A DNA stretch of 64,000 nucleotides, taken from positions 186,001 through 250,000 of the forward strand of contig CP051237.1 of the NCBI GenBank assembly GCA_017794825.1, given 5' to 3'. Under the pieces are notes generated by a model, which did not search any database, was not told where the DNA came from, and saw only the letters and a program-made list of their open reading frames with translations. The DNA is from Pararhizobium sp. (lineage in GTDB: Bacteria; Pseudomonadota; Alphaproteobacteria; Rhizobiales; Rhizobiaceae). Below, piece by piece: positions 20,946 to 39,185 of the stretch (positions are counted from its first letter, which is position 1; the number at the start of each line of letters is the position of its first letter). The position numbers were made by a program, and so were the translations under genes.

Positions 20946-22208
20946 TTAATCTGTATAGCGCCGCAACACAAGCGAGGCGTTGGTCCCACCGAAGCCGAAT
21001 GAATTCGATAACGCCACGTTGATTTCGCGTTTCCGCGCGACCTTGGGGACAAGATCAAGTTCGGTATCGATTGCCGGATTGTCGAGGTTCAAGGTCGGAG
21101 GCGCGACATTGTCCCGTATCGCCAATGTGCAGAAGATCGCCTCGACTGCGCCCGCCGCGCCCAGTAGATGCCCGATGGCGGATTTTGTCGACGACATCGA
21201 TATGCCGGAGGCCGCCTTGCCGACAACACGCTCGACTGCTCCAAGCTCAATGGTGTCGGCCATCGTCGAAGTCCCATGGGCGTTTATGTAATCGATGTCA
21301 GAAGCGTCAATGCCGGCCCGCTTCAAAGCGCTCGACATGCATCGATAGGCGCCTTCCCCGTCCTCAGCCGGCGCAGTGATGTGAAACGCATCACCGGAAA
21401 GGCCGTAACCGATGACTTCCGCATAGATCTTGGCGCCTCGCGCCTTGGCGTGCTCAAGCTCCTCCAGAACCACTACGCCGGCGCCCTCGCCCATAACAAA
21501 CCCGTCACGGTCGATATCATAGGGTCGCGAGGCGCGTTGTGGTTCATCATTGTAATCAGTGGAAAGCGCCTTGCAAGCAGCGAAACCCGCAAGCGCAATG
21601 CGGCATATGGGAGACTCCGCCCCGCCTGCGACCATCACGTCGGCGTCGCCTAGCGCAATCAGCCGGCTGGCGTCGCCAATCGCGTGCGCGCCCGTAGAAC
21701 AAGCGGTTACCACGGAATGGTTCGGTCCGCGCAGTTTGTGCTTGATGGAGACCTGCCCCGAAGCGAGGTTGATCAGCCTTCCCGGTATGAAGAACGGAGA
21801 GACGCGGCGCGGTCCCCGGTCTCGCAACGTGTAGCCGGCTTCGATGATGCCCTGGAGGCCGCCGATACCGGAGCCTATCAACACGCCCGTTGATATCTGG
21901 TCCTCATCCGACTGCGGAGACCAGTCCGCATCGGCGAGCGCCTGGTCCGCAGCGGCTGTCGCATAAACGATGAAAGGGTCGACCTTCCGCTGCTCCTTCG
22001 GCTCCATGTACTTGTCGGGATTGTATGTGCCGTTGGAACCGTCACCTATGGGAATCGAGCAGGCGATCTTCGCTGGCAGATCGTCGACCTCGAAGGCTTC
22101 GATCTTAGAAGCGGCGTTTTCTGAGGCCAGGAGTCTGCGCCAGCTGACCTCCGTGCCATCACCAAGAGGGGAAACCATTCCGGTTCCCGTAATTACAACA
22201 CGACGCAT
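20946..22208 (-). CDS. fabF: Beta-ketoacyl-ACP synthase II
   Basis: A condensing enzyme that elongates acyl-ACP with malonyl-ACP. The 420 residues start MRRVVITGTGMVSPLGDG. The catalytic Cys is in VVTACSTGAHAIGDAS, the two His are in NAHGTSTMADTIE and SAIGHLLGAAGAVEA, and the C-terminal SNSFGFGGTNASL is complete. GGGAGGG lies 6 bases before the ATG. A hairpin separates it from acpP upstream, so readthrough from acpP may be limited. It is followed 93 bp later by mltG. Confidence 0.97.
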   Translation of the reverse strand: MRRVVITGTGMVSPLGDGTEVSWRRLLASENAASKIEAFEVDDLPAKIACSIPIGDGSNGTYNPDKYMEPKEQRKVDPFIVYATAAADQALADADWSPQSDEDQISTGVLIGSGIGGLQGIIEAGYTLRDRGPRRVSPFFIPGRLINLASGQVSIKHKLRGPNHSVVTACSTGAHAIGDASRLIALGDADVMVAGGAESPICRIALAGFAACKALSTDYNDEPQRASRPYDIDRDGFVMGEGAGVVVLEELEHAKARGAKIYAEVIGYGLSGDAFHITAPAEDGEGAYRCMSSALKRAGIDASDIDYINAHGTSTMADTIELGAVERVVGKAASGISMSSTKSAIGHLLGAAGAVEAIFCTLAIRDNVAPPTLNLDNPAIDTELDLVPKVARKREINVALSNSFGFGGTNASLVLRRYTD

Positions 22209-22296
22209 GTGTTGCCCTCCCTATGATTCAATTACGCTCTGGTGAACGTGTTTCAGCTGCGGCGCGACGCCGGTTTTATCAGCTGACAAGACAATA

Positions 22297-22317
22297 CAGC
22301 CCGGAAAATCCGGGCTG
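22297..22317 (-). terminator. Hairpin between acpP and fabF
   Basis: Perfect 9-bp arms (CAGCCCGGA / TCCGGGCTG) with a 3-base loop. On the minus strand the hairpin is followed by a T-rich stretch (TATTGTCTTG). It lies 74 bp after the acpP stop and 88 bp before fabF, which fits a partial terminator that lets acpP be expressed above fabF. Confidence 0.55.
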
Positions 22318-22390
22318 TGGCGCAAAGCCTTCAGATCATGATCAAATTGTCGGATTTGACTGGCTGTCAGGCTGTGCACCGCCGATCCGC

Positions 22391-22627
22391 TTAACTCTGG
22401 GACTTCTCGATATACTTGATCGCGTCGCCAACCGTCAGAATGGTGTCGGCTGCGTCGTCCGGAATTTCCACTCCGAATTCTTCTTCGAAAGCCATGACCA
22501 GTTCAACCGTATCCAGAGAGTCGGCGCCAAGGTCATCAATGAAGCTTGCCCCTTCCGTCACCTTCTCGGCGTCAACGCCAAGATGCTCGACTACTATATT
22601 CTTAACGCGTTCTGCGGTATCGCTCAT
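22391..22627 (-). CDS. acpP: Acyl carrier protein
   Basis: The small acidic carrier of growing fatty acyl chains, 78 residues from the ATG at 22627. The phosphopantetheine attachment Ser is in [12 protein letters not shown], and the last helix contains [14 protein letters not shown] longer in-frame start is rejected because ACPs begin MSDTAERV in this group. It is flanked by fabG and fabF as in most Proteobacteria, and by hairpins on both sides. Confidence 0.98.
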
Positions 22628-22769
22628 GTCGGTATCCTCGACCCCTATACGTTTTGCTATGCCTTGGATAGCGGCATGCATTCACTCATTCAAGCTCAAA
22701 GCGCCTTATAATTCGGCACACCAGTCCCGTCAAAATACAAGCCTTTGATTTCCCCAGAATTCCGGGATA

Positions 22770-22791
22770 GCGCCCGCGCCTTTGCGGGCGC
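22770..22791 (-). terminator. GC-rich hairpin between fabG and acpP
   Basis: Arms GCGCCCGC / GCGGGCGC (8 bp) with a 6-base loop in the 262-bp gap downstream of fabG. There is no T-tract on either strand, so it may be an mRNA-stabilising or attenuating structure rather than a terminator. Confidence 0.35.
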
Positions 22792-22889
22792 CAACAACAC
22801 TGGATGCGGCCATTAACACGGTTTCTGCCGGGCGCAAAGCCCAAACTGAAACCTTTCATGCGCAGGCGCGATCGCAGAGTCGCGTCACG

Positions 22890-23627
22890 TCAAATCATCG
22901 CCATGCCGCCATTAATATGCATCGTCTGCCCCGTAATGTAGCTCGCCTCGTTCGACGCAAGGAACAGGACGCCAGCCGCCACCTCGGCGCCATCGCCGAT
23001 GCGCCGCATGGGAATAGCTCCCATGATCGCTTCTTTCTGCTTGTCATTCAGCTTGTCGGTCATCGCCGACTGGATGAACCCCGGCGCCACGCAATTGACA
23101 GTGATGTTGCGGGGAGCAATTTCCTGCGCGAGCGACTTCGTAAAGCCGATCAGACCCGCCTTTGACGCGCAGTAATTGGCCTGGCCGGGATTGCCGGTCA
23201 CGCCCACAACGGAAGTGATGTTGATGATCCGGCCGTGGCGGCGGCGCATCATCGGATGCGTCAGTTCCCTGGTCAGTTGGAACACTGCAGTCAGATTGAC
23301 GCCGATGACGGCGTTCCAGTCTTCGTCGGACATGCGAACGAACAAGCCGTCCCGCGTAATCCCTGCGTTGTTGACGAGAATATCGACGCCCTGGAGCTGC
23401 TCTTCTGCTTTTTTACCGAGAGCTTTCACCTCATCGACGTTTGAAAGATTGGCGGGAAACACATGCACATTGCCGCCAAGCTCCGAGGCAAGCGCGTCCA
23501 GCTTTTCGACCCGCGTGCCGTGCAGCCCGACGGTTGCGCCGGCCTTGTGAAGATAGCGGGCGATTTCCTCGCCGATTCCACCGGACGCGCCGGTCACAAG
23601 GGCCTTGCGGCCGCTCAGGTCAAACAT
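22890..23627 (-). CDS. fabG: 3-oxoacyl-ACP reductase
   Basis: An NADPH-dependent short-chain reductase that reduces beta-ketoacyl-ACP. The 245 residues carry the cofactor motif VTGASGGIGEEIA, NNAGITRDGL, the catalytic Ser in INITSVVGVTGN and YxxxK in YCASKAGLIGFTKS, and end TGQTMHINGGMAMI, typical of true FabG. It starts 15 bp after fabD and belongs with fabD and acpP. Confidence 0.97.
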   Translation of the reverse strand: MFDLSGRKALVTGASGGIGEEIARYLHKAGATVGLHGTRVEKLDALASELGGNVHVFPANLSNVDEVKALGKKAEEQLQGVDILVNNAGITRDGLFVRMSDEDWNAVIGVNLTAVFQLTRELTHPMMRRRHGRIINITSVVGVTGNPGQANYCASKAGLIGFTKSLAQEIAPRNITVNCVAPGFIQSAMTDKLNDKQKEAIMGAIPMRRIGDGAEVAAGVLFLASNEASYITGQTMHINGGMAMI

Positions 23628-23642
23628 CGATCAAACTCCGGT

Positions 23643-24581
23643 TCATAATTGATTTACAAGTTCCGCAACGTCCTGCGGGGTGTTGACAGGCTTAGCTGTC
23701 ATGTCAGGAGCAATGCGGCGCGCCAGCCCCGTCAAAACCTTGCCGGCGCCGATCTCGAAAATTTCGGTCACGCCATTGGCGTCAAGCCAGCCAACGCTTT
23801 CGCGCCAACGCACCTGACCGGTCACCTGCCTGACAAGCAGGTCAGCGATTTCCGCCGTACCGGTCACCGGACCGGCCGCCACATTGGCGACCAGCGGGAC
23901 GCAGGGCGCCTGCATGGCGACCTCGGCCAGCGCCTCCTTCATGGCGTCCGCCGCCGGCGCCATCAGTGCGGAGTGGAAAGGCGCGGAAACCGGCAGGAGC
24001 CTGGCGCGCTTTGCGCCCATCTCGCTCGCCTGTTGCGCCGCAGCCTCTATGTTCGCTTTGGAACCGGATATGACGAGTTGACCCGCCCCATTGTCATTGG
24101 CGATCTGGCAAACGCCGCCTGCCGAATTCTCGTTGCATATCGCATGCACCTGTTCGCGTTCGAGACCGATAATCGCGGCCATCGCGCCTTCGCCGACCGG
24201 CACTGCGGCCTGCATGGCTTCTCCTCGAATGCGAAGGAGCTTCGCGGTGTCCGCAACCGAAAAAGCGCCTGCAGCCGCCAGCGCAGAATATTCGCCCAGC
24301 GAATGACCTGCGACATAGGCGACCTTGTCTTTCAGGACGAATCCTTCCGATTCCAGCGCGCGGACGATCGAAAGCGAGACCGCCATCAGCGCAGGCTGGG
24401 CGTTGGCCGTGAGCGTCAGGTCTTCGTCAGGGCCTTCCCAGATGATCCTGGAGAGCTTCTGACCGAGCGCTTCGTCGACCTCCTCGAAAACCGCACGGGC
24501 TGCAGGATAGGCTTCGGCCAGTTCCTTGCCCATGCCGACAACCTGGCTGCCCTGTCCGGGAAACGTAAATGCCCAACTCAT
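23643..24581 (-). CDS. fabD: Malonyl-CoA-ACP transacylase
   Basis: Transfers malonate from CoA to ACP to start elongation. The 312 residues begin with FTFPGQGSQVVGMGKELA. The nucleophile Ser is in AGHSLGEYSALAAAG, the supporting Arg in IRGEAMQAA, and the His in VSAPFHSALM. It is the first gene of the minus-strand fab operon. In rhizobial genomes the gene beyond fabD is usually rpsF; here a catabolic cassette lies between them. Confidence 0.97.
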   Translation of the reverse strand: MSWAFTFPGQGSQVVGMGKELAEAYPAARAVFEEVDEALGQKLSRIIWEGPDEDLTLTANAQPALMAVSLSIVRALESEGFVLKDKVAYVAGHSLGEYSALAAAGAFSVADTAKLLRIRGEAMQAAVPVGEGAMAAIIGLEREQVHAICNENSAGGVCQIANDNGAGQLVISGSKANIEAAAQQASEMGAKRARLLPVSAPFHSALMAPAADAMKEALAEVAMQAPCVPLVANVAAGPVTGTAEIADLLVRQVTGQVRWRESVGWLDANGVTEIFEIGAGKVLTGLARRIAPDMTAKPVNTPQDVAELVNQL

Positions 24582-24667: not shown

Positions 24668-25996
24668 TCAGTAGGCCTGTGCGTATTTCTCGCATATTTC
24701 CATATCGGTCAGGCCGTTCATGATGTCGATCTCGCATCGCTTGTGCGCGAGATAGACCTTGATGAAGGTTTCGCCAAAAGCCTTCTTCGCCCAGTCGCTG
24801 GCCTCCAGTCGGTCGAGGGCGTCGGCAAGGCTGGTCGGCAATCGGGCGCATCCGATATCCGCAAGTTGCTCGGGCGTCATCTCGTTGGGGTCGCTTTCGG
24901 TGACCACTGGCGTCGGCATGCTTTCGTCGAGACCGTTCAAGCCGGCGTTCACGAGCGCCGCCATAACCAGATACGGGCTCGCGGCGGCGTCCGAAACGCG
25001 ATATTCGAAATGAAACTTGCCTGCAAAATCTTTCTCGTCCCTTGGCTGGAAGACCGGGCAGATTCGCACAGCCGCCTCGCGGTCGCGGTAACCGACATTG
25101 TTGCAAGTCGGGCTCCAGCGATGCGGTGTCATTCTGATGTAGGAGGGTACGGCCGGCGCTGTCATGGACACGAATTCCGGCAGACGCCGCACCACGCCGG
25201 CGATGAATGCGCCAGCTCTGTCGGAAACACCGTGGGGCTTTGCGCTGTCGAAATCAACCGGATTGCCCTCAATGTCATGCAGCGAGAAATGCAGGTGCAC
25301 GCCGTTGCCGACGCCCTCCGGATCGAGGATTGGGGCAAAACTCGCACGTTCGCCGAGGCCATGCGCCACGGCGCGGGTCATTTCCCGCAACACGACAGCG
25401 TCGTCACAAGCGCCGATCGCATCGTTTGGACCAATTGTGACCTCGCATTGCCCGGGGCCATATTCCGGCATGAAAGTATCGAGTTTCAGACCGACGCGAT
25501 CGAGGACCACCATCAGCCTGTCCGGAAACTCGCCCATGCGGCGAAAGGCGCGCAGCGCGTAGCCAAGTCCCGGCTGCGGCCGACCGCCCGAGTAATGAAA
25601 TTCGTGCTCGAACGCGGCCTTCAGCACAAGCCCGTAGTCGTTTTTCAGCCGTTCGGCGGCGGCTTTCGCCTGACCGCGCAGGCAGCATTCCCAAGGCTCG
25701 TCCTCCAGCGTCATCACATCACCGATCACGAAACACTCATTGACGCCGTATTCCGGGATCGCAAGGTCGATCATGGTCGAGTAATCCGGTCTGATCAAAA
25801 GATCCCCGCGCGGCCCCCAGGGGCTGGCGGCAATCGGACCGAAAGAAGTAATTTGAACGCAGGTTCCAGTCCACCCAACGCCGGTTTCCGTCCGCAAGAC
25901 CTTCGCACGCAACGGCATCGCCTTTCCGCGAAGCTGACCCGATATATCGCTGGTTACGACCATCATCAGATCGGTGTTCTTACGGTTGTCGGTCAT
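24668..25996 (-). CDS. Glutamine synthetase-like gamma-glutamyl-amine ligase (copy 1)
   Basis: A 442-residue GS-fold ligase, predicted to join an amine to the gamma-carboxyl of glutamate with ATP. GS elements visible are the N-terminal beta-grasp VTSDISGQLRGKAMP, the metal-binding AAFEHEFHYSGG, the substrate loop GVGNGVHLHFSLHD and the C-terminal FEYRVSDAAASPYLVMAAL. The sequence is far from canonical GlnA: the usual NRxxxxR-type nucleotide segment is replaced by TPHRWSPTCNNVGYRDREAA. It is the last gene of the cassette, 145 bp after the iron alcohol dehydrogenase and beyond a strong hairpin, so expression may be lower. The amine substrate is not identifiable from sequence. Confidence 0.85.
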   Translation of the reverse strand: MTDNRKNTDLMMVVTSDISGQLRGKAMPLRAKVLRTETGVGWTGTCVQITSFGPIAASPWGPRGDLLIRPDYSTMIDLAIPEYGVNECFVIGDVMTLEDEPWECCLRGQAKAAAERLKNDYGLVLKAAFEHEFHYSGGRPQPGLGYALRAFRRMGEFPDRLMVVLDRVGLKLDTFMPEYGPGQCEVTIGPNDAIGACDDAVVLREMTRAVAHGLGERASFAPILDPEGVGNGVHLHFSLHDIEGNPVDFDSAKPHGVSDRAGAFIAGVVRRLPEFVSMTAPAVPSYIRMTPHRWSPTCNNVGYRDREAAVRICPVFQPRDEKDFAGKFHFEYRVSDAAASPYLVMAALVNAGLNGLDESMPTPVVTESDPNEMTPEQLADIGCARLPTSLADALDRLEASDWAKKAFGETFIKVYLAHKRCEIDIMNGLTDMEICEKYAQAY

Positions 25997-26076
25997 CGCC
26001 TCGTCCTTCGCCCTGTATGAAATTTACGATTGCAACCTTTTTCCAGATTAGTGGGACCGAGTAAAGCACAGGGAAT

Positions 26077-26100
26077 CCGCGGGAAACGTCATTCCCGCGG
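26077..26100 (-). terminator. Hairpin between iron alcohol dehydrogenase and GS-like copy 1
   Basis: Perfect 9-bp arms (CCGCGGGAA / TTCCCGCGG) with a 6-base loop, downstream of the iron alcohol dehydrogenase on the minus strand and upstream of the last ligase gene. The downstream bases are only weakly T-rich, so attenuation rather than full termination is likely. Confidence 0.45.
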
Positions 26101-26141
26101 CCGTCAGCCGTTGCAAATCCGAAGGGAAGAAAAGTTCTGGA

Positions 26142-27287
26142 TCAGAGACAATCGCGAAACAGCTGTGCGGTGTTTTCCCGGGTCATCTCGACGGGATTGC
26201 TGCCAGCCGTCGGGTCGACGATCGCCATTTCGGTTAGTTCATCGATTCGGTCCTCGGATACGCCCATTGCAGCCAGCCCGCTTGGGACGCCGAGTTTCGA
26301 GCGCAAGTCGACCACATAGTCGTAAAAGCCATCAAAGCCGCCGTCGATGCCAAGATAGGCGGCGGCTCGCTCGATTTTGTCCTCGATTATCGCACGATTG
26401 AATTTCAGAACAGGAGGCATGACGACGGCGTTGGTCATGCCGTGGTGGGTGTTGTAAACAGCGCCTACGGGATGCGACAGAGCATGGATCGCGCCCAGTC
26501 CCTTCTGGAAGGCGACGGCGCCCATGGCTGCGGCGCTCATCATGTTGGCGCGCGCTTCCAGATTGTCCGGCTCGGCAAACACGACCGGCAGGTTTTCCTT
26601 GACCAGCCGCATGCCTTCAAGCGCTATTCCCTGGCTCATCGGGTGATAGAACGTCGTCGAATAGGCTTCCAGGCAGTGGGCGAACGCATCCATACCGGTG
26701 CCGACGGTGATCGCCTGCGGCATGCCACAGGTCAACTCCGGATCGCAGATCACCGCGGATGGCAGCATCTTCGGATGGAAAATGATCTTTTTGACATGGG
26801 TTTGCGAGTTGGTCAGCACCCCTGCCCGACCGACTTCCGATCCTGTGCCGGCCGTAGTAGGAACCGCGACGTTCGGAGCGATCGCATCGGCGTCGGCGCG
26901 CGTCCACCAGTCGCCAATGTCCTCCAGATCCCAGACCGGGATCGACTGTCCCGCCATCAGGGCGATGGATTTGCCAAGATCGAGCCCCGAGCCGCCGCCG
27001 AATGCAACGACGCCGTCATGACCACCGGTCTTGTAGACCTCAATACCGGCGGCGAGATTGATATCCGTCGGATTGGGATCAACCTCGGAGAACACGGCGC
27101 GACCAAGGCCTGCCTTCTCCAGAAGATCGAGCGCATGAGCGGTGATCGGCAGGTTGGCCAGACCGCGGTCGGTCACCAGCAATGGCCGCTTGATGCCGGC
27201 AACTGCGCAGGCTTCTCCGAGTTCGGCGATACGTCCGGCGCCGAAGCGTATCGGATTTGGGTAGCTCCAGTTTGCAACCATGCTCAT
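26142..27287 (-). CDS. Iron-containing alcohol dehydrogenase
   Basis: A group III Fe-dependent NAD(P) alcohol dehydrogenase of 381 residues. The nucleotide-binding GGGSGLDLGKSIALMAG and PTTAGTGSEVGRAGVL and the metal-ligand helices HCLEAYSTTFYHPMSQG and IHALSHPVGAVYNTHHGM, with three His, are all intact. It lies 3 bp after the aldehyde dehydrogenase gene, so the two are likely to act in sequence, alcohol to aldehyde to acid. Given the flanking GS-like ligases, the alcohol is most likely carried on a gamma-glutamyl amide; this is an inference. Confidence 0.93.
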   Translation of the reverse strand: MSMVANWSYPNPIRFGAGRIAELGEACAVAGIKRPLLVTDRGLANLPITAHALDLLEKAGLGRAVFSEVDPNPTDINLAAGIEVYKTGGHDGVVAFGGGSGLDLGKSIALMAGQSIPVWDLEDIGDWWTRADADAIAPNVAVPTTAGTGSEVGRAGVLTNSQTHVKKIIFHPKMLPSAVICDPELTCGMPQAITVGTGMDAFAHCLEAYSTTFYHPMSQGIALEGMRLVKENLPVVFAEPDNLEARANMMSAAAMGAVAFQKGLGAIHALSHPVGAVYNTHHGMTNAVVMPPVLKFNRAIIEDKIERAAAYLGIDGGFDGFYDYVVDLRSKLGVPSGLAAMGVSEDRIDELTEMAIVDPTAGSNPVEMTRENTAQLFRDCL

Positions 27288-27290
27288 CGT

Positions 27291-28670
27291 TCAGACTTTC
27301 TTCAAATGATAGGATTTCGGGCGCGTCAGGTTCTGGTATCCAATGACGGAAAGCGCCCCGCCCTTGCCGGTGTTCTTGCAGCCGGTCCAGCACAGTCCGG
27401 GATCGAGGTAGTCCGCGCGGTTCATGAAAACGGTGCCGGTTTCAATGCGGGCGCCAATCCGGGCCGCGCGTTCCGGATCACGGGTCCACAACGACGCCGT
27501 CAAGCCGAACTCACTGTCATTCATGAGCGATACGGCCTCGTCGTCATCAGCGACCTTCATAATGCCGACAACCGGTCCGAAACTCTCCTCGCGCATAACC
27601 CGCATGTCATGATTCACGTCAACAAGGATCTGCGGCATCAGATATGTGCCCCCGTCCTGGGGAAAGAGCTGCGGGTCGATCAATGCGCGTGCGCCGGCTT
27701 CCACTGCTTCGGCGGTCTGGGCGCGAACCTCTTCTGCAAATCGCAGCGTCGCCATCGGTCCAAGCGTCGTCGTCTCATCCAGCGGGTTACCCAGAGTGTA
27801 GCCACTGACGATAGCGACCGCTTTCTCAACGAAAGCGTCGAAAAGCGAAGCGGCGACATAGATTCGCTCAATGCCGCAGCAGCACTGACCGGAATTGAAC
27901 ATGGCGCCGTCGATCAGCGTTTCCGCAGCCGCCTCGACGTCGGCGTCGTCCATGACGTAGCCCGGATCCTTGCCGCCAAGTTCAAGCCCCAGATTGGTGA
28001 AGGTGCCAGCGGCAGCCCGTTCGATGGCCCTGCCGCCGCCCACAGAACCGGTGAAATTCACGAATCCGAAGCTTTTTGCAGCGATCAGCGCCTCTGTCGT
28101 CTCATGATCGAGAAACACGTTCCGGAATACGTCTTCCGGCACGCCAACTTCGGAAAACGCCTTCGCCATCCGTTCGCCTACGAGAACAGTCTGGGTGGAG
28201 TGTTTCAGCACCACCGCGTTGCCTGCGATCAGCGCCGGCGCAACCGTGTTGATCGCCGTCATGTAAGGGTAGTTCCATGGCGCAATGACCAGAACCACTC
28301 CATGCGGCTCGCGCAGGATACGCCGCTCGAAACTGTCGCTGTCTTCCACGACAATCGGCTTCAAAGCCTCCTCGGCGATATCCGCCATATAACTCGCGCG
28401 TTCCTCAAAGCCGCGAAACTCGCCGCCATAACGCACGGGCCGCCCCATCATCCAGGAGAGTTCCGGGACGATCTCCTCATTCATCTCGCCGATGCGGGCG
28501 ACCCCCGCTCGCACCAGCGCGATCCTTTCGGACAGCGGTCTTGCAGCCCAGGCTTTTTGAGCTTTTGCCGCCCTGTTCACGACGTCTTGCGCCTCTGAGG
28601 ACGACAGTACCGGCCGTTCGGCATAGATCGTTCCGTCGATCGGCGTTACGCATTGCAGAATTTTTGTCAT
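27291..28670 (-). CDS. Aldehyde dehydrogenase family protein
   Basis: An NAD(P)-dependent aldehyde dehydrogenase of 459 residues, short for the family (about 480-500). The oxyanion and cofactor Asn is in IAPWNYPYMTAI, the general base Glu in LGLELGGKDPGYVM, and the catalytic Cys in FNSGQCCCGIERIYV, a rare triple Cys. MREESFGPVVGIM and the C-terminal GGALSVIGYQNLTRPKS are complete. It sits between the second GS-like ligase (1 bp) and the iron alcohol dehydrogenase (3 bp). It parallels PuuC, which oxidises gamma-glutamyl-aminoaldehydes in putrescine degradation, but the substrate here is not known. Confidence 0.93.
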   Translation of the reverse strand: MTKILQCVTPIDGTIYAERPVLSSSEAQDVVNRAAKAQKAWAARPLSERIALVRAGVARIGEMNEEIVPELSWMMGRPVRYGGEFRGFEERASYMADIAEEALKPIVVEDSDSFERRILREPHGVVLVIAPWNYPYMTAINTVAPALIAGNAVVLKHSTQTVLVGERMAKAFSEVGVPEDVFRNVFLDHETTEALIAAKSFGFVNFTGSVGGGRAIERAAAGTFTNLGLELGGKDPGYVMDDADVEAAAETLIDGAMFNSGQCCCGIERIYVAASLFDAFVEKAVAIVSGYTLGNPLDETTTLGPMATLRFAEEVRAQTAEAVEAGARALIDPQLFPQDGGTYLMPQILVDVNHDMRVMREESFGPVVGIMKVADDDEAVSLMNDSEFGLTASLWTRDPERAARIGARIETGTVFMNRADYLDPGLCWTGCKNTGKGGALSVIGYQNLTRPKSYHLKKV

Positions 28671-28671
28671 G

Positions 28672-30042
28672 TCAGGCTCTTTCGAATCCGCGCGCGACTT
28701 CCCAGTCGGTAACCTTGCGGTCGTATTCTTCCTGCTCCCACTCGGCGGCGCGGACGTAGTGGTCGATTACCGCGTCGCCGAACGCCGCGCGCAACATGTC
28801 GGACTCGTCTAGCGCGCGCATGGCGCTGCGCAGCGTGCGCGGCACGGATCTCGCTTTTTCGGACAGGTAGGCGTCGCCTTTGAACTCGTCTTCCAGATCG
28901 CGCTTGTTCTCGATGCCGTCAAGCCCGGCTGCAAGCATCGCGGACATTGCGAGATAGGGATTGAGATCGGCCCCGCCGATACGGCATTCGACACGCACCG
29001 CCTTGCTGCTTTCGCCGCATAACCGGAACCCGGCTGTCCGGTTGTCGGTGCTCCAGATCGCCTTCGTCGGCGCGAATGTGCCCTCGGCGAACCGCTTGTA
29101 GGAGTTGATATATGGCGCCAGAAACCAGGTGATCGCCTCGGCATTGTGCAAAAGACCAGCCAGGTAGTGACGCATCAGCTCCGACATGCCGTAGGGACCG
29201 TCCGGATCGTAAAACAGCGCGGTCTTGCCGTCGTCGGACCAGAGCGACTGATGAATATGACAGGAGTTGCCCGCCGCTTGCGTATGCCACTTGGCCAGGA
29301 ACGTCAGGGCCTTGCCCTTCGCCCACGCGATTTCCTTGCTGCCGTTCTTTATGAAAACGTGAGTGTCGGCGATATCCAGCGCATCGGAATATCTGACGTT
29401 GATTTCTTCTTGGCCAGCGCATGCCTCGCCCTTGGTGCACTCGATCGCGATGCCCGCGCCGTAGAGGCCGTTGCGTATCGACCGCATCACCTCTTCTTCC
29501 TTGGTGGTCTGAAAGACGGCGTAGTCCTGATTGTATTTGCCGATGGTGGTCAGGCTCCTGTAGCCGCCTGCCTGCGCCTCCTCGAAGCTCTGGTCGAACA
29601 GGAACAGCTCCAGTTCCGGCGCCATGTTGGCCATCATGCCCATGTCCTTCAGGCGCGCGACCTGCTTCTTCAGCAACGCTCGTGGCGCATGCGGCACTTC
29701 CTCATGCGTATGGTGATCCATCACGTCGCAAAGCACATAGGCGGTCTTTTCGAGCCAGGGCGTGCGACGCAGCGTCGTCATGTCCGGCGTCATTGTATAG
29801 TCGCCATAGCCGCGCTCCCAGCTTGCGGAGGCATAGCCGCTGACGGTCTCCATCTCCATATCCGTCGCCAGCAGATAGTTACAGCTGTGGGTTTCCTTGA
29901 AGGCGTGCTTGACGAAGTTGTCGGCGTGGAACCGCTTGCCCATCAACCGGCCCTGCATGTCGACCTGCACAGCGACGACCGTGTCGATCTCACCGCTTGC
30001 GACCGCGTTTTCGAGCTCCTTGAAGCTAAGATTGCCGGGCAT
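28672..30042 (-). CDS. Glutamine synthetase-like gamma-glutamyl-amine ligase (copy 2, PuuA-like)
   Basis: A 456-residue GS-family ligase closer to the PuuA/GlnT type than copy 1. Visible are the beta-grasp VAVQVDMQGRLMGKRF, the metal site MAPELELFLFDQ, NSCHIHQSLWSDDG, the nucleotide and glutamate segment SYKRFAEGTFAPT, and VECRIGGADLNPYLAMSAM. Such proteins commonly gamma-glutamylate amines (putrescine, ethanolamine, isopropylamine) rather than ammonia. It is 1 bp from the aldehyde dehydrogenase gene and 90 bp after the TRAP binding-protein gene, with a long hairpin between. Two divergent ligases in one operon suggest two substrates or a hetero-oligomer. Confidence 0.9.
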   Translation of the reverse strand: MPGNLSFKELENAVASGEIDTVVAVQVDMQGRLMGKRFHADNFVKHAFKETHSCNYLLATDMEMETVSGYASASWERGYGDYTMTPDMTTLRRTPWLEKTAYVLCDVMDHHTHEEVPHAPRALLKKQVARLKDMGMMANMAPELELFLFDQSFEEAQAGGYRSLTTIGKYNQDYAVFQTTKEEEVMRSIRNGLYGAGIAIECTKGEACAGQEEINVRYSDALDIADTHVFIKNGSKEIAWAKGKALTFLAKWHTQAAGNSCHIHQSLWSDDGKTALFYDPDGPYGMSELMRHYLAGLLHNAEAITWFLAPYINSYKRFAEGTFAPTKAIWSTDNRTAGFRLCGESSKAVRVECRIGGADLNPYLAMSAMLAAGLDGIENKRDLEDEFKGDAYLSEKARSVPRTLRSAMRALDESDMLRAAFGDAVIDHYVRAAEWEQEEYDRKVTDWEVARGFERA

Positions 30043-30080
30043 ATTGTCAGCCTTCCGGAATATACTCTGTTATCAGTAAA

Positions 30081-30117
30081 TTGCCGCCGGTTTCGCAGAA
30101 ATCGATTCCGGCGGCAA
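30081..30117 (-). promoter_or_regulatory. Intercistronic stem-loop after the TRAP binding-protein gene
   Basis: Perfect 10-bp arms (TTGCCGCCGG / CCGGCGGCAA) with a 17-base loop, located 16 bp after the binding-protein gene and 38 bp before the GS-like gene on the minus strand. In solute-binding-protein operons a hairpin at this place often protects the upstream mRNA so that the binding protein is made in excess. A role as partial terminator is also possible. Confidence 0.5.
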
Positions 30118-30132
30118 CAGCTTTGTTGAATG

Positions 30133-31182
30133 CTAACCGTAACGGTAAGGCGGACCCGCCTTCTGCATGGTTTCGCGATATTTTTTCAGGATTTCGACGA
30201 CCTTCGCATTACGCGGGCTTTCGGCCGCGATTTCATCCCAGAATTTCAGGGCCTCGTCCTCGACGGTGGTCCATTCCTCTTCAGGGATCGAGGTCAGTTC
30301 CAACTTGCCCCCGGTCGTGCGGTAGTGCGCCTCGCCCCACCAGTACCAATACTGGCGGTAATAATGAGAGCTGTCGATGCACAACATGTAGAGCGATTGC
30401 AGGTTTTCCGGCAGTTCGTTCCAGCGCTCTTCGTTGACGAAATAGGAACCCGCCCAGGCGCCGGAAATGTTGTTCGTGAGATAGTAGTTGGTCACATCGG
30501 CCCAACCGACAGTATAGTCCTCGGTGATGCCCGACCAGGCGATGCCGTCGAGTTCGCCTGTCTGGACGGCGACTTCGATGTCTTCCCACGGCAGAGTCAC
30601 CGGCACCACGCCGAAGCGCTGCAGGAAGCGTCCGGCAGTCGGGAATGTGAACACCCGTTTGCCCTTCAGATCTTCAAGGCTCCTGATCGGATCGACCGTC
30701 GCGAAGTTGCACGGGTCCCAGGCGCCGGCGCTCAGCCATTTTACGCCCTCGACTTCCGAATAAGCCTCTTCCCAGATTTCCTTCAGTCCGTACTCGTTGA
30801 AAAGCACCGGCACATCGAGGCTGTAGCGTGATGCGAACGGGAAGTATCCCCCGAACACCGAAACATCGACCGGCGCTGCAATGGAGTCGTCGTCGCTCTG
30901 AACGGCGTCTATCGTACCGCGCTGCATGGCGCGAAACAGTTCGCCCGTGGGCACAAGCTGGTCGGCGAAGTAGAGTTCGATTTCCATCTGGCCCGCCGCG
31001 ACCTTGTTGAACTGGTCGATGGACGGCTTGATCACATGTTCAGCGAGCGCCGGACCGGCATAGGTCTGGAGCCGCCACTTGATGGGCGCCTGCGCCTTGA
31101 CGTGAGGGGCAGCGAGTGTAGCGCTGCCGGCGGCGGCCGTGAACAGGCCGGCTTTCTTCAAAAAATTACGTCTGTTGGTCAT
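30133..31182 (-). CDS. TRAP transporter substrate-binding protein (DctP family)
   Basis: The periplasmic receptor of a tripartite ATP-independent transporter, 349 residues. The N-terminus NRRNFLKKAGLF is a twin-arginine signal, with cleavage likely after HVKA. The domain shows WRLQTYAGPALAEHV, ELFRAMQRGTIDAV and SLEDLKGKRVFTFPTAGRF. The Arg that holds the substrate carboxylate in most TRAP receptors (within the KxR segment after LKG) aligns here with Phe178, so the ligand may not be a simple carboxylate. The ATG at 31182 is preceded by GGGAG and is preferred over a longer frame. A stem-loop follows the gene. Confidence 0.92.
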   Translation of the reverse strand: MTNRRNFLKKAGLFTAAAGSATLAAPHVKAQAPIKWRLQTYAGPALAEHVIKPSIDQFNKVAAGQMEIELYFADQLVPTGELFRAMQRGTIDAVQSDDDSIAAPVDVSVFGGYFPFASRYSLDVPVLFNEYGLKEIWEEAYSEVEGVKWLSAGAWDPCNFATVDPIRSLEDLKGKRVFTFPTAGRFLQRFGVVPVTLPWEDIEVAVQTGELDGIAWSGITEDYTVGWADVTNYYLTNNISGAWAGSYFVNEERWNELPENLQSLYMLCIDSSHYYRQYWYWWGEAHYRTTGGKLELTSIPEEEWTTVEDEALKFWDEIAAESPRNAKVVEILKKYRETMQKAGPPYRYG

Positions 31183-31280
31183 GGATATTCTCCCGTTTCG
31201 AAATGCGCGGACCTTTCCGTCGCACCTCCTGTTCAGTTGTTCCCTTGTGTTGTGTTCGGCGGCGCGATCTCCTCTTTCGG

Positions 31281-32606
31281 TTAGCGGACATAGACATGTT
31301 GCGGCAGCCACAGGGCGATCTGGGGAAAGACCATGACGATCACCAGCGCCAACAGCATCACGAAAACAAAGGGCACGATGGACCGGTAGATGTCGGTCAG
31401 CGAAATTTCCGGCGGAGCCATCGCCCGCATCAGAAAAAGGTTGTAGCCGAAAGGCGGCGTCATATAGGCGATCTGGCTGGTTATGGTGTAGAGCACGCCG
31501 TACCAGATGAGATCGAAACCGAGCATATCTACTAGCGGAATGTACAGCGGCGCGACGATCACCAGCATGGCCGTGTCATCGAGGAAGGTCCCCATCAGCA
31601 GGAAGGAAATCTGCATAAGGATCAATATCTCCCATGGGCCGAGACCGAGCTCTCCTACGAAGAAGCCCTCGATCGCGCGCACCGCGCCAAGACCGTCGAA
31701 CACCGCGCCGAAACAAAGCGCCGCCAGGATAATCCACATGAACATGCAGCTCACGCCGAGCGTCTTACGCAAGGTCTCTTCCATGACATGCGCGGTGAGC
31801 CGTCGTTTCACGATGGCGGCAAGCGTCGCCGCGAGCGCCCCGACCGCCGAACTCTCGACGAGACTTGTCACGCCCATAAGGAACAGTCCCGTCATGCTGA
31901 AAAAGATCAGGATTGGAAGAATGCCGGCCCGCAACAGCTTCAGCTTCTCGCGCAAAGGAATGTTGCGTTCTTCCTTCGAGAGCGGCGGTCCGAGTTCCAG
32001 CTGAATACGGCAGCGAACAACGACATAAACGATGAACAACCCAGCCATCATCAGACCGGGGAACACGCCAGCCAGCCACAACTGTCCGACCGACTCTCTT
32101 GCGATCATGCCATAGAGCACGAGAACCACGCTTGGCGGCACGAGGATGCCGAGCGAACTGCCGGCCTGCACAACGCCGGTGATCATGATCTTGTCGTAGC
32201 CGCGGCGCAGCAATTCCGGCAGCGCGATTGTCGCGCCAATAGCCATACCAGCGACGCTCAGTCCGTTCATCGCCGAGATCGCCACCATGAGAATGATAGT
32301 TCCGATCGCGAGTCCGCCGTTCAAAGGCCCGAACCAGACATGAAACATCTTGTATAGATCGTCTGCGATGCCGGATTCCGACAGCATGTAGCCCATGTAG
32401 ATGAAGAGCGGCAGCGTCAGCAGCGGATACCACTTCATCAGTTTGACGCCAGCCGAGAAGGCGATTTCCGAACCACCGTCGCCCCAAAGCAGCAGCGAGG
32501 CGATCACCGCCACGGCGCCGATCGCACCAAAGACGCGCTGGCCGGTTAGAAGCATCACCATCATGGAGGCGAACATGAGGATGGCGATCATCTCATAGCT
32601 CATCAC
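31281..32606 (-). CDS. TRAP transporter large permease (DctM family)
   Basis: The 12-helix membrane subunit that moves substrate with sodium or proton gradients. It has 441 residues, with MKWYPLLTLPLFIYMGYML near residue 60, SLGILVPPSVVLVLYG, and a C-terminal YMTPPFGYNLFLMRAM, all typical of DctM. The start overlaps the stop of the small permease by 4 bp (ATGA). It lies 98 bp upstream of the binding-protein gene, so the order QMP is all on one transcript. Confidence 0.94.
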   Translation of the reverse strand: MMSYEMIAILMFASMMVMLLTGQRVFGAIGAVAVIASLLLWGDGGSEIAFSAGVKLMKWYPLLTLPLFIYMGYMLSESGIADDLYKMFHVWFGPLNGGLAIGTIILMVAISAMNGLSVAGMAIGATIALPELLRRGYDKIMITGVVQAGSSLGILVPPSVVLVLYGMIARESVGQLWLAGVFPGLMMAGLFIVYVVVRCRIQLELGPPLSKEERNIPLREKLKLLRAGILPILIFFSMTGLFLMGVTSLVESSAVGALAATLAAIVKRRLTAHVMEETLRKTLGVSCMFMWIILAALCFGAVFDGLGAVRAIEGFFVGELGLGPWEILILMQISFLLMGTFLDDTAMLVIVAPLYIPLVDMLGFDLIWYGVLYTITSQIAYMTPPFGYNLFLMRAMAPPEISLTDIYRSIVPFVFVMLLALVIVMVFPQIALWLPQHVYVR

Positions 32607-33109
32607 AGATCAACCCCGCGCACCTTGCCGATGCTCCGAAACATCGAGGCGATGGCCTGAAGCAGCATCATCAGAATGCCGAGACACATGACGATCTTGA
32701 TCGGCGCCATATATGGTCGCCAGGCGGAGTAGCTTCTCTCACCATATTCGAGGGCGTAAGCGGTGCTGTTGTATCCGCCGTAAAGCAGGACGCCCAGATA
32801 GAAGATGAGCAACAGGACCGTGAAGCTGTCGACCCAGGCTTTCTTACGGTCAGACCATGCGCCATACAAAAGATCCATCCGCACATGGTCGCCCATCTGC
32901 AGAGAATAGGCCCCACCGAGAATATAATAGCCAACCATCAGGAACTGCGCTGTTTCCAGCGTCCAGAGCGGCGGAATGAAGAACGTCTTAGTAAAGGACG
33001 AGTAGAGGAGCACGCCCATCATCGCGAAGATGAGATACATGGCAAAGCGACCGATAATCCGATTGAACCGGTCTACGATATGAATATAGCCAACGATGAA
33101 TCCGGGCAT
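32603..33109 (-). CDS. TRAP transporter small permease (DctQ family)
   Basis: A four-helix small membrane subunit that pairs with DctM. Of its 168 residues, helices lie near 18-38 (FAMYLIFAMMGVLLYSSF), 50-68, 90-112 and 132-155. The motif GDHVRMDLLYGAWSDRKKAW between helices 2 and 3 is typical of DctQ. It overlaps the large permease by 4 bp and the upstream amidohydrolase stop by 3 bp, so translation of three genes is probably coupled. Confidence 0.92.
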   Translation of the reverse strand: MPGFIVGYIHIVDRFNRIIGRFAMYLIFAMMGVLLYSSFTKTFFIPPLWTLETAQFLMVGYYILGGAYSLQMGDHVRMDLLYGAWSDRKKAWVDSFTVLLLIFYLGVLLYGGYNSTAYALEYGERSYSAWRPYMAPIKIVMCLGILMMLLQAIASMFRSIGKVRGVDL

Positions 33110-33921
33110 CAGGGAACCCTCGCTGGCGAGGATACAGTTTCGGGTACGGAGCGATCGAGCGCGGCCATCAACATGGCGACCAGTTCGTTCGCCGCGCGTT
33201 TCTGACCGGCTTCGTCCGCGATGAGATCGTTTCGGACCTCGATCATCACATTGAGCAGATTTCGCGGCGCTGCGTGAACGTCGATTGTGTGCATGACCCC
33301 CTGCCCCGGCCCGTAGGGTTCGTTGCGGCGGGTCACCATGGTAGTGAAGCTCGAGGCGTGATCAAGCATCGCATCAGCCAGACGCGTGTCCCAGTCATGC
33401 AGAATTCCCAGTTCCACCTCCCGCATTGCGCCGTGATAGACAGGAGTGAAACTGTGAATGGTCACGAAGACCGGATGTCGGCCTGCATGGGTTCGTTGTT
33501 CGATGGTGTCTGCGACTGTCTCGTGAAACGGCGTGTATATCTCGATGATCCGCCGTTGCTGTTCCAGATCGGAAAGGCGGCGATTGCCCGGCACTTCGTA
33601 TATTTCGCTGACCGCCGGCATTGCGTCATGCGCTCCCGGCGCACGGTTGCAATCAAAGACAAGTCGTGAAAAGTTTTGCGCAATCAGGGTCGCATCCAGG
33701 ATTTCCGCCATAGCCCTCGCCACCTCGATGGCGCCCGGATCCCAAGCGATGTGACTTTGCAGAACATCAGGTTCGAGGCCCAGCTTGCCAAGGGCGGCCG
33801 GAATCCGGTTGGACGCATGTTCACACACGAGCAGGATGTCGCTGTCGCCGCTCGGATTGGCTACGGAAACCGGTTCGCCATCCGCGACAGTCAGAAGTGA
33901 CGCATGTGAGGTCAATGCCAT
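33109..33921 (-). CDS. N-formylglutamate amidohydrolase family protein
   Basis: A 270-residue hydrolase of the FGase family (PF05013). Recognisable segments are ILLVCEHASNRIPAALGKLG, HIAWDPGAIEVARAMAE, FSRLVFDCNRAPG, VTIHSFTPVYHG and a C-terminal IEVRNDLIADEAGQ. Known members release formate from N-formylglutamate in histidine breakdown, but no hut genes are present. As the first gene of a cassette with two gamma-glutamyl ligases, it may hydrolyse a gamma-glutamyl amide and return glutamate, filling the place of PuuD. That reassignment is an inference. The ATG at 33921 has AGGGGA upstream; the frame runs far upstream without coding signs. Confidence 0.9.
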   Translation of the reverse strand: MALTSHASLLTVADGEPVSVANPSGDSDILLVCEHASNRIPAALGKLGLEPDVLQSHIAWDPGAIEVARAMAEILDATLIAQNFSRLVFDCNRAPGAHDAMPAVSEIYEVPGNRRLSDLEQQRRIIEIYTPFHETVADTIEQRTHAGRHPVFVTIHSFTPVYHGAMREVELGILHDWDTRLADAMLDHASSFTTMVTRRNEPYGPGQGVMHTIDVHAAPRNLLNVMIEVRNDLIADEAGQKRAANELVAMLMAALDRSVPETVSSPARVP

Positions 33922-33931
33922 TGTTCCCCTG

Positions 33932-33953
33932 TTCTGTAAAAATCTGTACAGAA
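33932..33953. promoter_or_regulatory. Candidate operator between hydrolase and RpiR genes
   Basis: In the 105-bp divergent region, TCTGTACAGA (33943-33952) is a perfect 10-bp palindrome nested in an inverted repeat TTCTGT (33932-33937) / ACAGAA (33948-33953). TCTGTA also recurs directly at 33933 and 33943, one helical turn apart. A second AT-rich imperfect dyad follows near 33980-33998. The neighbouring RpiR protein is the obvious candidate ligand. Confidence 0.45.
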
Positions 33954-34026
33954 ATTCAGACCTCGTCAATAGGAACCTGAAATTTTCATTACAAATTTGT
34001 GGCACGCTGTGGAATGACGAGTTACC

Positions 34027-34923
34027 ATGTCCCCGATGGAGGAAAATCCGCGGACGATGGACAAGCCGGTACTCGAACTCATCAGAGACAGATACGACGC
34101 CTTGACGCGCACGGAACGCCGGCTGGCTGACGCGCTGCTGGACAATTACCCCGTCGCCGGCCTGACCAGCATGACGCGACTCGCCGAAAGCGCCGGGGTG
34201 TCGACGCCGTCCGTCCTGCGCATGGCCCAGAAGTTGGGTTTTTCGGGATTTCCCGATCTGCAAGCCTCGCTCCGCGCAGAGCTGGAAGCGACAATCTCCA
34301 ATCCGATCGCGAAGCATGACAGCTGGGCTGAACACGCGCCGAACACCCACATTCTCAACCGCTTCGCTGACGCAGTGATGCAGAACATGCGCGAGACGCT
34401 GGGCGCGCTCGATCCGCAGGAATTCGACGCTGTGCGAACGCGGCTTGCAGACCGCAGACGCGGTCTTCTCATCGCCGGCGGCCGCATCACGCACGCGCTG
34501 GCGCAATACATGTTCACCCACATGCAGGTGATCCGCGAAAATGTGACGCTGCTTCCGCCAAACGCCAACACCTGGCCGCACTTCGTTCTGAACATTCGCG
34601 AAGGCGACGTCCTCGTCGTGTTCGATATTCGCCGTTACGAGAACGATACGCTGAAACTGGCCGAAATGGCGCGTTCGAAAGGCGCGTCCATTATACTGTT
34701 TACCGACCGTTGGGGCTCACCGGTTTCGCGATTCGCGGAGATCAGGTTCAACGTGCAGATCGAAGCGCCGTCGGCCTGGGACTCCTCCGTCGTAACGATG
34801 TTCATCATCGAGGCCCTGATCGCCGCTGTCGAAACAGAAATCTGGGGCGTCACCAGCCAGCGAATGAAGCAGCTTGAAGGGCTTTTCGACGAGACGCGCC
34901 TGTTCCGCAAGGCCCGTGACTAG
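34027..34923 (+). CDS. RpiR/MurR family transcriptional regulator
   Basis: A 298-residue regulator with an N-terminal HTH_6 domain (about residues 10-85: LTRTERRLADALLDNYPVAG, then VSTPSVLRMAQKLGFSGFPDL) and a C-terminal SIS domain at about 130-265 (RRGLLIAGGRITHALAQYMF, VLVVFDIRRYENDTLKLAEM). SIS domains usually sense phosphosugars; some RpiR members in rhizobia control amine or amino-acid catabolism instead. It is divergent from the cassette, whose operator candidates lie in the shared 105-bp gap, so it probably controls it. The first ATG is used; ATG at 34057, with GGAGG upstream, is a plausible shorter start. Confidence 0.92.
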   Translation: MSPMEENPRTMDKPVLELIRDRYDALTRTERRLADALLDNYPVAGLTSMTRLAESAGVSTPSVLRMAQKLGFSGFPDLQASLRAELEATISNPIAKHDSWAEHAPNTHILNRFADAVMQNMRETLGALDPQEFDAVRTRLADRRRGLLIAGGRITHALAQYMFTHMQVIRENVTLLPPNANTWPHFVLNIREGDVLVVFDIRRYENDTLKLAEMARSKGASIILFTDRWGSPVSRFAEIRFNVQIEAPSAWDSSVVTMFIIEALIAAVETEIWGVTSQRMKQLEGLFDETRLFRKARD

Positions 34924-35296: not shown

Positions 35297-35689
35297 ATGG
35301 CTCTCTACGAACATGTATTCCTTGCTCGGCAGGACGTATCCGGACAGCAGGTCGAAGCCCTTGTGGAACAGTTCAAGGGTATTATCGAAAGCAATGGCGG
35401 ATCAGTCGGGCGCATTGAAAACTGGGGACTGAAGTCCCTCACCTATCGCATCAACAAAAACCGTAAAGCGAATTACACGCTGATGAACCTCGACGCGCCT
35501 GCAGACGCCGTCAAGGAAATGGAACGCCAGATGCGCATCAACGAAGATGTGCTGCGTTACATGACCATCCGCGTCGACGAACTTGAAGAAGGTCCGTCCG
35601 CCATGATGCAGAAGCGCGACCGCGACGACCGCCGAGGCGGCCGTGATCGCGACGACCGTCCGCGTCGTCCGCGCGAAGACCGCAACTAA
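35297..35689 (+). CDS. rpsF: 30S ribosomal protein S6
   Basis: S6 of the small-subunit platform, which pairs with S18. From the ATG at 35297 it has 130 residues starting [20 protein letters not shown], with [17 protein letters not shown] and [18 protein letters not shown]. The C-terminal tail is a run of Arg and Asp ([14 protein letters not shown]), as in other alphaproteobacteria. A longer in-frame start at 35255 is rejected. It is followed 12 bp later by rpsR. Confidence 0.97.
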
Positions 35690-37785: not shown

Positions 37786-37863
37786 TTGTGGCATTCGTAT
37801 CACAGTCTGACGCATGATACTGGATTATCAGCTTTTTCGTTGTTACAGTCGCTCGAAACAATG

Positions 37864-37877
37864 CCGAATTTATTCGG
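37864..37877. promoter_or_regulatory. Palindrome upstream of the cyclopropane synthase gene
   Basis: CCGAAT and ATTCGG flank a central TT, a 14-bp dyad 33 bp before the GTG start. It lies where a regulator or transcription start would be expected. The two-base centre makes it more likely a DNA site than an RNA hairpin. Confidence 0.3.
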
Positions 37878-37910
37878 TGACAGAGACTGACAAGCACGAG
37901 GCCTATTGTC

Positions 37911-39185
37911 GTGGACCGTTTTCTTGAGCGATTGATAAACAGACTGGTCAAGTCGGGAAATTTGACCGTAACTTTTGCGGGAGGAAGGACTAGCAGGTTT
38001 GGAGACGGTGCGGGCCAACCGGTTCATCTCCGCCTCAATAGCAAGAAAGCCGAACGGGAGATCCTGCTCGATCCGTCGCTCAAATTCGCCGAAGCCTTCA
38101 TGGATGGCGATATCGACATGGTCCAGGGCGATATCTACGACTTTCTCGAAGTGATTTTCGAGAATGCTGGCTCCAACGCAACCACATCCTCGGCCTGGCT
38201 CAAGGTTGTGGACGGCCTGCGCCGCGCCGTGTCCCATCTCGGCGACTGGAATACACTCGGTCGCTCGCGGGCGAATGTCCAGCATCACTACGATCTGTCC
38301 GGCGAACTGTACGACCTGTTTCTGGATTCCGATCGCCAGTATTCCTGCGCCTACTATGAAAAGCCGGATTTCGATCTTGCCGAGGCCCAGCTCGCCAAGA
38401 AGAAACATATTGCGGCGAAGCTCTACATGGACCGGGACGACCTGTCGGTGCTTGATATCGGGTCCGGCTGGGGCGGCATGGGACTTCACCTCGCCCGCGA
38501 ATTCAATGCTCGCGTCACGGGCGTGACCCTGTCCGATGAACAGTTCAACGTCTCGAACCGCAGGGCCCGCGATGAAGGGCTCGCTGCACAGGCCGAGTTC
38601 AAGCTGCTCGACTATCGCAAGATCGAACAGAAATTCGACCGAATCGTTTCGGTCGGCATGTTCGAACATGTCGGAAAAAAACACTACCAGACCTATTTCG
38701 ACAAATGCGCGAAGATACTCGACGACGATGGCGTCATGCTGCTGCATACGATCGGCCAGACCCATCCGCCTACCCCGACCAACGCCTTCATAAAGAAGTA
38801 TATTTTCCCCGGGGGCTACATTCCGTCCCTGTCTGAAATGCTGCCAGCCATCGAGCGATCCGGTCTCGCGGTGACCGATGTCGAGATACTGAGGCTGCAC
38901 TACGCCGAAACGCTCAAAGCCTGGCGCGAGGCATTCATGCTTAACCGCGACAAGGCGAAAGAGCTTTACCATGAACGTTTCTGCCGAATGTGGGAATTCT
39001 ATCTCGCGTCGTCCGAATCGGGTTTCCGCCATCAGGATCTCGTCGTCTTCCAGATCCAGATGGCGAAGAAAGTTGATACGCTGCCGATCGTGCGCGATTA
39101 CATCACCGAGATGGAGCACGCGCCTGTCAGGGCTACCCCCGCGGTCTCCCGCGCCGAAGTGAGACAGCCCGTCGCGGCGAAGTAG
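37911..39185 (+). CDS. Cyclopropane-fatty-acyl-phospholipid synthase family methyltransferase
   Basis: A SAM-dependent enzyme of 424 residues predicted to add a methylene bridge to unsaturated acyl chains of membrane phospholipids. The N-terminal lipid-binding region includes FAEAFMDGDIDMVQGDIYDF. The methyltransferase core has HHYDLSGELYDLFLDSDRQY, YSCAYYE, the SAM motif VLDIGSGWGGMGLHLA, and SVGMFEHVGKKHY. The bicarbonate-site His and Glu regions are compatible with activity. The start is GTG with GAGG about 10 bases upstream. It lies between the rplI terminator and dnaB as a single-gene unit. Confidence 0.92.
   Translation: MDRFLERLINRLVKSGNLTVTFAGGRTSRFGDGAGQPVHLRLNSKKAEREILLDPSLKFAEAFMDGDIDMVQGDIYDFLEVIFENAGSNATTSSAWLKVVDGLRRAVSHLGDWNTLGRSRANVQHHYDLSGELYDLFLDSDRQYSCAYYEKPDFDLAEAQLAKKKHIAAKLYMDRDDLSVLDIGSGWGGMGLHLAREFNARVTGVTLSDEQFNVSNRRARDEGLAAQAEFKLLDYRKIEQKFDRIVSVGMFEHVGKKHYQTYFDKCAKILDDDGVMLLHTIGQTHPPTPTNAFIKKYIFPGGYIPSLSEMLPAIERSGLAVTDVEILRLHYAETLKAWREAFMLNRDKAKELYHERFCRMWEFYLASSESGFRHQDLVVFQIQMAKKVDTLPIVRDYITEMEHAPVRATPAVSRAEVRQPVAAK

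Follow-up and report, generated by a model that had tools for sequence, protein, structure and literature searches.

The stretch of DNA analyzed here (the window) covers 64,000 nucleotides from Pararhizobium sp. (GenBank assembly GCA_017794825.1, contig CP051237.1, forward-strand positions 186,001–250,000), whose 6.06 Mb genome is assembled as a single contig. It contains a compact gene cluster with a core of eight genes (26142–34923): an RpiR-family regulator and, on the minus strand, seven genes for an FGase-family amidohydrolase, the small permease (TRAP-Q), large permease (TRAP-M) and substrate-binding protein (TRAP-P) of a tripartite ATP-independent periplasmic (TRAP) importer, a glutamine-synthetase-like ligase (GS1), an aldehyde dehydrogenase (ALDH) and an iron-containing alcohol dehydrogenase (Fe-ADH). 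A second glutamine-synthetase-like gene, GS2, adjoins the operon on its Fe-ADH side (Table 1). Gene content, order and homology make us highly confident that the core is a γ-glutamylation-type ethanolamine utilization operon, predicted to import ethanolamine and to degrade it to glycine. The system as a whole is a known ethanolamine pathway plus one unexplained neighbor, GS2.

An earlier annotation of this DNA, made from the sequence alone (hereafter the original prediction), had named these gene families and their strands, and Pfam matches confirm each of them, including the divergent RpiR gene, which lies opposite the minus-strand genes. The short gaps of 1–3 bp described there are also present in the coordinates: Fe-ADH and ALDH are separated by 3 bp, and ALDH and GS1 by 1 bp. 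In addition, the TRAP-M and TRAP-Q genes overlap by 4 bp, and TRAP-Q and the FGase-family gene by 1 bp. Larger gaps separate GS1 from TRAP-P (90 bp) and TRAP-P from TRAP-M (98 bp). The original prediction placed all of these genes in one run, which needs one qualification: GS2 is set off from Fe-ADH by 145 bp. GS2, the operon and the RpiR gene all sit between a fabF-fabG-fabD cluster and rpsF.

Predicted substrate and pathway

The substrate-binding protein provides evidence for the identity of the substrate. It matches the solved chains 4uab/4xf5 over residues 30–348 with an E-value of 8.6e-168, the next solved chain being at 2.3e-15, and is termed EtoX below. 4UAB, the best match, is Csal_0678 of Chromohalobacter salexigens, which was solved with ethanolamine bound and with Glu220 as a platform for the ligand (PMC12410723); this protein, with ethanolamine as its ligand, lacks the arginine with which TRAP binding proteins usually hold a carboxylate (PMC4646407). 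The window EtoX shares this feature. Its Phe178 aligns opposite the carboxylate-binding arginine of another TRAP protein (4yzz), and the position is occupied by Phe in 25 and by Tyr in the other 7 of 32 homologues. Glu221, which is Glu in 32/32 homologues, is the likely counterpart of the platform Glu220, presumably with an offset in numbering between the deposited chain and the paper. The FGase-family enzyme has a single solved match, 2ODF (2.7e-84), deposited as 'Hypothetical protein Atu2144', the name connecting it to the pathway of Agrobacterium tumefaciens C58.

The same operon has been described in Phaeobacter sp. MED193, where the consecutive locus tags MED193_10021–10056 encode RpiR, γ-glutamylglycine amidohydrolase (GGAH), EtoV, EtoW, EtoX, ethanolamine γ-glutamylase (ETAGA), γ-glutamylacetylaldehydeamide dehydrogenase (GAADDH) and γ-glutamylethanolamide dehydrogenase (GETADH) (PMC10132767). 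The eight parts, their order by locus tag (RpiR at the head, followed by GGAH-EtoV-EtoW-EtoX-ligase-ALDH-FeADH) and the reactions inferred for them are identical to those of the window. The figure legend for the Phaeobacter locus lists no second GS-like gene, whereas in the window GS2 and the fab cluster come next. According to the same paper, Phaeobacter EtoX binds ethanolamine with a Kd of 7.9 μM and leaves the named analogues unbound, five products of the locus (EtoX and four enzymes) are raised on phosphorylethanolamine compared to phosphate, and the genes have close relatives in a pathway, credited to Vetting et al. 2015, that had been demonstrated in both C. salexigens and A. tumefaciens (PMC10132767). 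In the original prediction, Fe-ADH, FGase and the TRAP importer would set this pathway apart from the Puu putrescine pathway. These parts do not make it distinct from anything known, since the three are already published together in Phaeobacter, and we rejected the idea of a new pathway.

A related route exists in Streptomyces coelicolor, in which the GS-like ligase GlnA4 likewise makes γ-glutamylethanolamide, and two oxidations followed by hydrolysis by an enzyme of the formylglutamate amidohydrolase family are predicted, as in the window (PMC6529630). A short-chain dehydrogenase takes the place of Fe-ADH there, and other streptomycetes have an amino-acid-type permease where the window has the TRAP importer (PMC6529630). 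The same steps as in the GlnA4 pathway were proposed for C. salexigens (PMC9397018).

Membership in the Puu pathway was also considered and rejected, as GS1 and GS2 score 213.2 and 232.7 bits with the NCBIfam model for PuuA (NF045547), compared to a cut-off of 650. The Puu pathway of E. coli acts on polyamines and employs a flavin oxidase and a class I amidotransferase-type hydrolase; with Pfam, neither of these two enzyme types was found in the gene run. The logic of protecting an amine as its γ-glutamyl derivative is common to Puu and the window operon.

The best solved relatives of GS1 are 5dm3 (6.5e-183), which we take to be from C. salexigens, and 11zs (8.1e-177), both deposited as glutamine synthetase. 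The active sites of GS1 and GS2 were read by alignment to GlnA of the host, with the roles of the catalytic residues taken from glutamine synthetase. Both ligases retain the metal, glutamate and phosphate residues that were checked, and those examined in GS1 for metal, glutamate and catalysis are conserved in 24/24 homologues. The flap glutamate of glutamine synthetase is replaced by Phe323 in GS1 (Phe in all 24 homologues) and by Trp294 in GS2 (Trp in 6/6 orthologues), and both proteins fall below the NCBIfam cut-offs for GlnA and PuuA. By sequence, GS1 thus resembles a glutamine synthetase homologue that does not use ammonia. The original prediction would have failed had the ligases been true glutamine synthetases, a candidate function that we rejected for both on sequence grounds, as the flap glutamate is missing.

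From the observed genes, their order, their conservation and their active-site residues, the following steps would be expected in this organism. Under the putative control of RpiR, EtoXWV would bring ethanolamine into the cell, where GS1 would use ATP to couple it to the γ-carboxyl group of glutamate, forming γ-glutamylethanolamide. Fe-ADH would oxidize the alcohol of this compound to an aldehyde and ALDH would convert the aldehyde to γ-glutamylglycine, from which the FGase-family enzyme would release glutamate and glycine. The scheme agrees with the original prediction, which proposed γ-glutamylation of an amino alcohol, its oxidation through an aldehyde to an acid, release of glutamate by the FGase-like enzyme and a dedicated TRAP importer. 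Each of these elements is supported, and the 4UAB match together with the Phaeobacter operon makes ethanolamine the very probable amino alcohol. The enzyme families by themselves do not fix the substrate, and an operon serving some other amine or amino alcohol instead (e.g. alaninol or 3-aminopropanol) would be compatible with them. We regard such a specificity as very improbable, given how close the window EtoX is to 4UAB, the conservation of the glutamate at the ligand site, and the rise of the matching Phaeobacter products on phosphorylethanolamine. The published ethanolamine route is now placed in a further Rhizobiaceae genus.

Distribution of the operon and opposing evidence

EtoX was found, at an E-value of 1e-80 or better, in 19 of 41 genomes surveyed, including the host. 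All eight core genes are present in 14 of the 18 EtoX loci other than the window, so this gene run is not a chance arrangement. Among the others, contig ends truncate L038 and L044, and no ALDH gene is seen between Fe-ADH and GS1 of L038. In a broader sample of the class, EtoX occurs in 36 of 289 genomes (E≤1e-120), i.e. 35 besides the host. Ten of these 35 loci were read, and two of them (L140 and L144) contain the full gene set.

Several observations weigh against the assignment of the operon to ethanolamine utilization. Among the nearer relatives, L040 has no GS1, ALDH or Fe-ADH gene within 17 kb, and L042 has no GS1 gene in the 1.6 kb remaining beyond EtoX. At the class level, three of the ten loci read carry a partial set (L136, L141 and L143), and in the stretches read of five more (L135, L137, L138, L139 and L142) the transporter is found without FGase, ALDH or a GS1 relative of more than 31% identity; L142 does have Fe-ADH, and the sequence of L135 stops 2 kb past EtoX. 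None of the NCBIfam cut-offs is reached by ALDH among 25 of the 44 families listed, by Fe-ADH among 15 families, or by GS1 among the families shown. The published system itself leaves some room for doubt, as Phaeobacter EtoX is also raised under phosphate starvation without phosphorylethanolamine, and the enzyme names there rest on induction and homology, EtoX being the protein assayed with ethanolamine (PMC10132767). Furthermore, the host genome carries genes for another ethanolamine-degrading enzyme, EutBC, described below, and the operon therefore need not be its sole ethanolamine route.

The EtoX proteins of L135, L137, L138, L139 and L142 are 76–83% identical to that of the window. Ten open reading frames (ORFs) at EtoX loci without the pathway enzymes, which are part of those present and some of which may be in the wrong frame, were scanned for replacement enzymes; none was related, except for an ORF of the zinc alcohol dehydrogenase family in L137.

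Ethanolamine ammonia-lyase, EutB and EutC, is encoded elsewhere in the host genome (L134 7770–9919; G000:C1 ~804.8–806.9 kb), in the vicinity of genes for an ABC transporter of the oligopeptide type and for an M19 dipeptidase. Two ethanolamine routes may thus coexist in this genome, and a strain that carries both the operon and EutBC could serve for comparing them.

The second ligase, GS2

The best solved match of GS2 is 4hpp (5.6e-84; next match 5e-31). 4HPP is PA5508 of Pseudomonas aeruginosa, which prefers bulky amines over polyamines (PMC6478659) and is also described as preferring aromatic amines (PMC11335346). By sequence, PA5508 is the nearest solved relative of GS2, a putative amine ligase. 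In a quick tree with SH-aLRT support alone, GS2 falls in a clade separate from GS1, on a long branch together with its congener. The 77 rows of this tree comprise a selection from the 80 loci described below, four paralogues of the host (L007 omitted) and GS1 rows of at least 55% identity; PA5508 itself is outside the tree, the GS2 gene of Flavimaribacter sediminis was omitted as it is split between frames, and a long-branch warning applies to GlnA of the host and two other paralogues.

GS2 has a narrow distribution. Close orthologues are present in all three genomes of the genus, which are included in the five of 297 sampled family genomes with a match at E≤1e-140. In one other genus, four of eight genomes have GS2, and all eight have EtoX. 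At the more permissive threshold of E≤1e-40, four of the 41 surveyed genomes contain a relative; the fourth (G013, 42%) belongs to a separate RpiR/FGase module. Six of the seven GS2 copies adjoin the Fe-ADH gene of the operon. In G468, GS2 lies beside the whole operon, as in the window, and in G603 and G604 it lies beside RpiR, FGase, GS1, ALDH and Fe-ADH, the TRAP genes being located in another part of the genome. In G390, GS2 lies between fabD and rpsF without the operon, which is present in complete form at a different site. Neither GS2 nor the operon was found in the 10–15 kb read around fabD in 18 further genomes that lack GS2, one of these stretches being without rpsF. In the congener F. 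sediminis (L034 13640–13690), the GS2 frame shifts by one base at a run of G after residue 64, possibly because the gene is broken or because of a slip in the assembly.

The original prediction treated the second ligase as a unit of the pathway. The EtoX loci of relatives do not bear this out: as far as they were read, 16 of 18 lack GS2, the two that have it both being from congeners. We lean towards the interpretation of GS2 as a passenger: a ligase of the PA5508 type that serves a different amine and resides in a variable fabD-rpsF gap, beside which the operon came to lie. G390, with GS2 but not the operon between fabD and rpsF, fits this interpretation, as do the 18 fabD loci without either and the separate RpiR/FGase neighborhood of the wider GS2 family; the operon might, however, equally have disappeared from this position in G390. 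It appears rather unlikely, if worth consideration, that GS2 works in the pathway as an additional amine ligase, extending the range of substrates to a bulkier amine or a further amino alcohol and passing its products to the dehydrogenases and hydrolase of the operon. The direct proximity to Fe-ADH in six of seven orthologues (at least 60% identity), including G603 and G604 with their TRAP genes elsewhere, would be explained by such a role. The gene is also under purifying selection (dN/dS of 0.057 between the window and G002), similar to its neighbors (range of 0.013–0.108 for ten genes), the catalytic residues checked are retained in 6/6 orthologues, and EtoX occurs somewhere in all seven genomes with GS2. 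Apart from the missing copies and the position in G390, a role in the pathway is at odds with the variable gap between GS2 and Fe-ADH, which ranges from ~145 to ~520 bp, and with the shifted frame in F. sediminis, and the co-occurrence with EtoX says little because the other genus has EtoX even in those four of its eight genomes that are without GS2. That GS2 has been recruited, in Flavimaribacter and some members of a second genus of the family, to give a two-entry γ-glutamylation pathway that would also take a bulkier or different amino alcohol, we consider improbable. What GS2 adds to the system is a small question of substrate range.

Neighborhoods were examined for the best 80 of 196 GS2 relatives, some cut by contig ends and with the F. 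sediminis operon locus counted. FGase is present in 70 of them, RpiR in 67 and both in 62, and EtoX was found in none except the F. sediminis operon locus. That members of this family usually have an RpiR/FGase neighborhood of their own fits a role in γ-glutamylation of an amine, which these data leave unnamed. The host has a second module of this kind (L053 8492–17145; G000:C1 ~1550.0–1558.6 kb), in which one strand encodes RpiR and a PA5508-like ligase, and the other encodes FGase, an isochorismatase-family enzyme and an ABC transporter of the branched-chain type. A literature search retrieved no paper that combines N-formylglutamate amidohydrolase with isochorismatase and glutamine synthetase, and another that took in RpiR and γ-glutamyl compounds listed none that mentions the amidohydrolase.

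Regulatory signals and coordinates

A palindrome, TGAAANTTTCA, is located in the gap between RpiR and FGase in the window and in two congeners. With at most one mismatch, it occurs in 3 of 26 such gaps, compared to 0.18 expected from shuffled sequences. As these three are all from near-identical relatives, we make no claim of a shared RpiR operator, and a literature search combining RpiR, ethanolamine and operator found no paper. Nothing notable emerged for promoter-like sites, with 5 observed against 3.5 expected, or for terminator-like sites, with 6 observed against 9.7.

Two ORFs in the surroundings have no Pfam match at 0.001 and may not be genes: a plus-strand ORF between fabF and fabG (22223–22711, 162 aa) and a minus-strand ORF with a TTG start between rplI and dnaB (37800–39323, 507 aa). 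For two genes of the operon, the shorter of the possible ORFs was used in Table 1. The longer ORF of TRAP-P starts at 31311 and the DctP domain was found in the shorter one; the longer ORF listed for the FGase-family gene overlaps RpiR, and the FGase domain falls within the shorter one.

Table 1. Features of the ethanolamine locus and its flanks, in window coordinates.
Feature	Position	Strand	Evidence
RpiR-family regulator (HTH_6 and SIS domains), divergent	34027–34923	+	PF01418 9.1e-18, PF01380 1.9e-22
FGase-family amidohydrolase, predicted γ-glutamylglycine amidohydrolase (GGAH)	~33109–33921	-	PF05013 4.9e-42
TRAP-Q small permease, EtoV-like	32603–33109	-	PF04290 8.1e-21
TRAP-M large permease, EtoW-like	31281–32606	-	PF06808 1.2e-65
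TRAP-P substrate-binding protein, EtoX-like, predicted to bind ethanolamine	30133–31182	-	4uab/4xf5, DctP domain
GS1, glutamine-synthetase-like ligase, predicted ethanolamine γ-glutamylase	28672–30042	-	PF00120 2.3e-100
ALDH, predicted γ-glutamyl-aminoacetaldehyde dehydrogenase	27291–28670	-	PF00171 1.4e-115
Fe-ADH, predicted γ-glutamylethanolamide dehydrogenase	26142–27287	-	PF00465 7.2e-46, PF25137 5.4e-41
GS2, predicted PA5508-like amine ligase, adjoining the operon, outside the conserved core	24668–25996	-	PF00120 3.9e-67
fabF-fabG-fabD cluster, beyond GS2	20946–24581		
rpsF, beyond RpiR	35297–35689		Ribosomal_S6 9.8e-33

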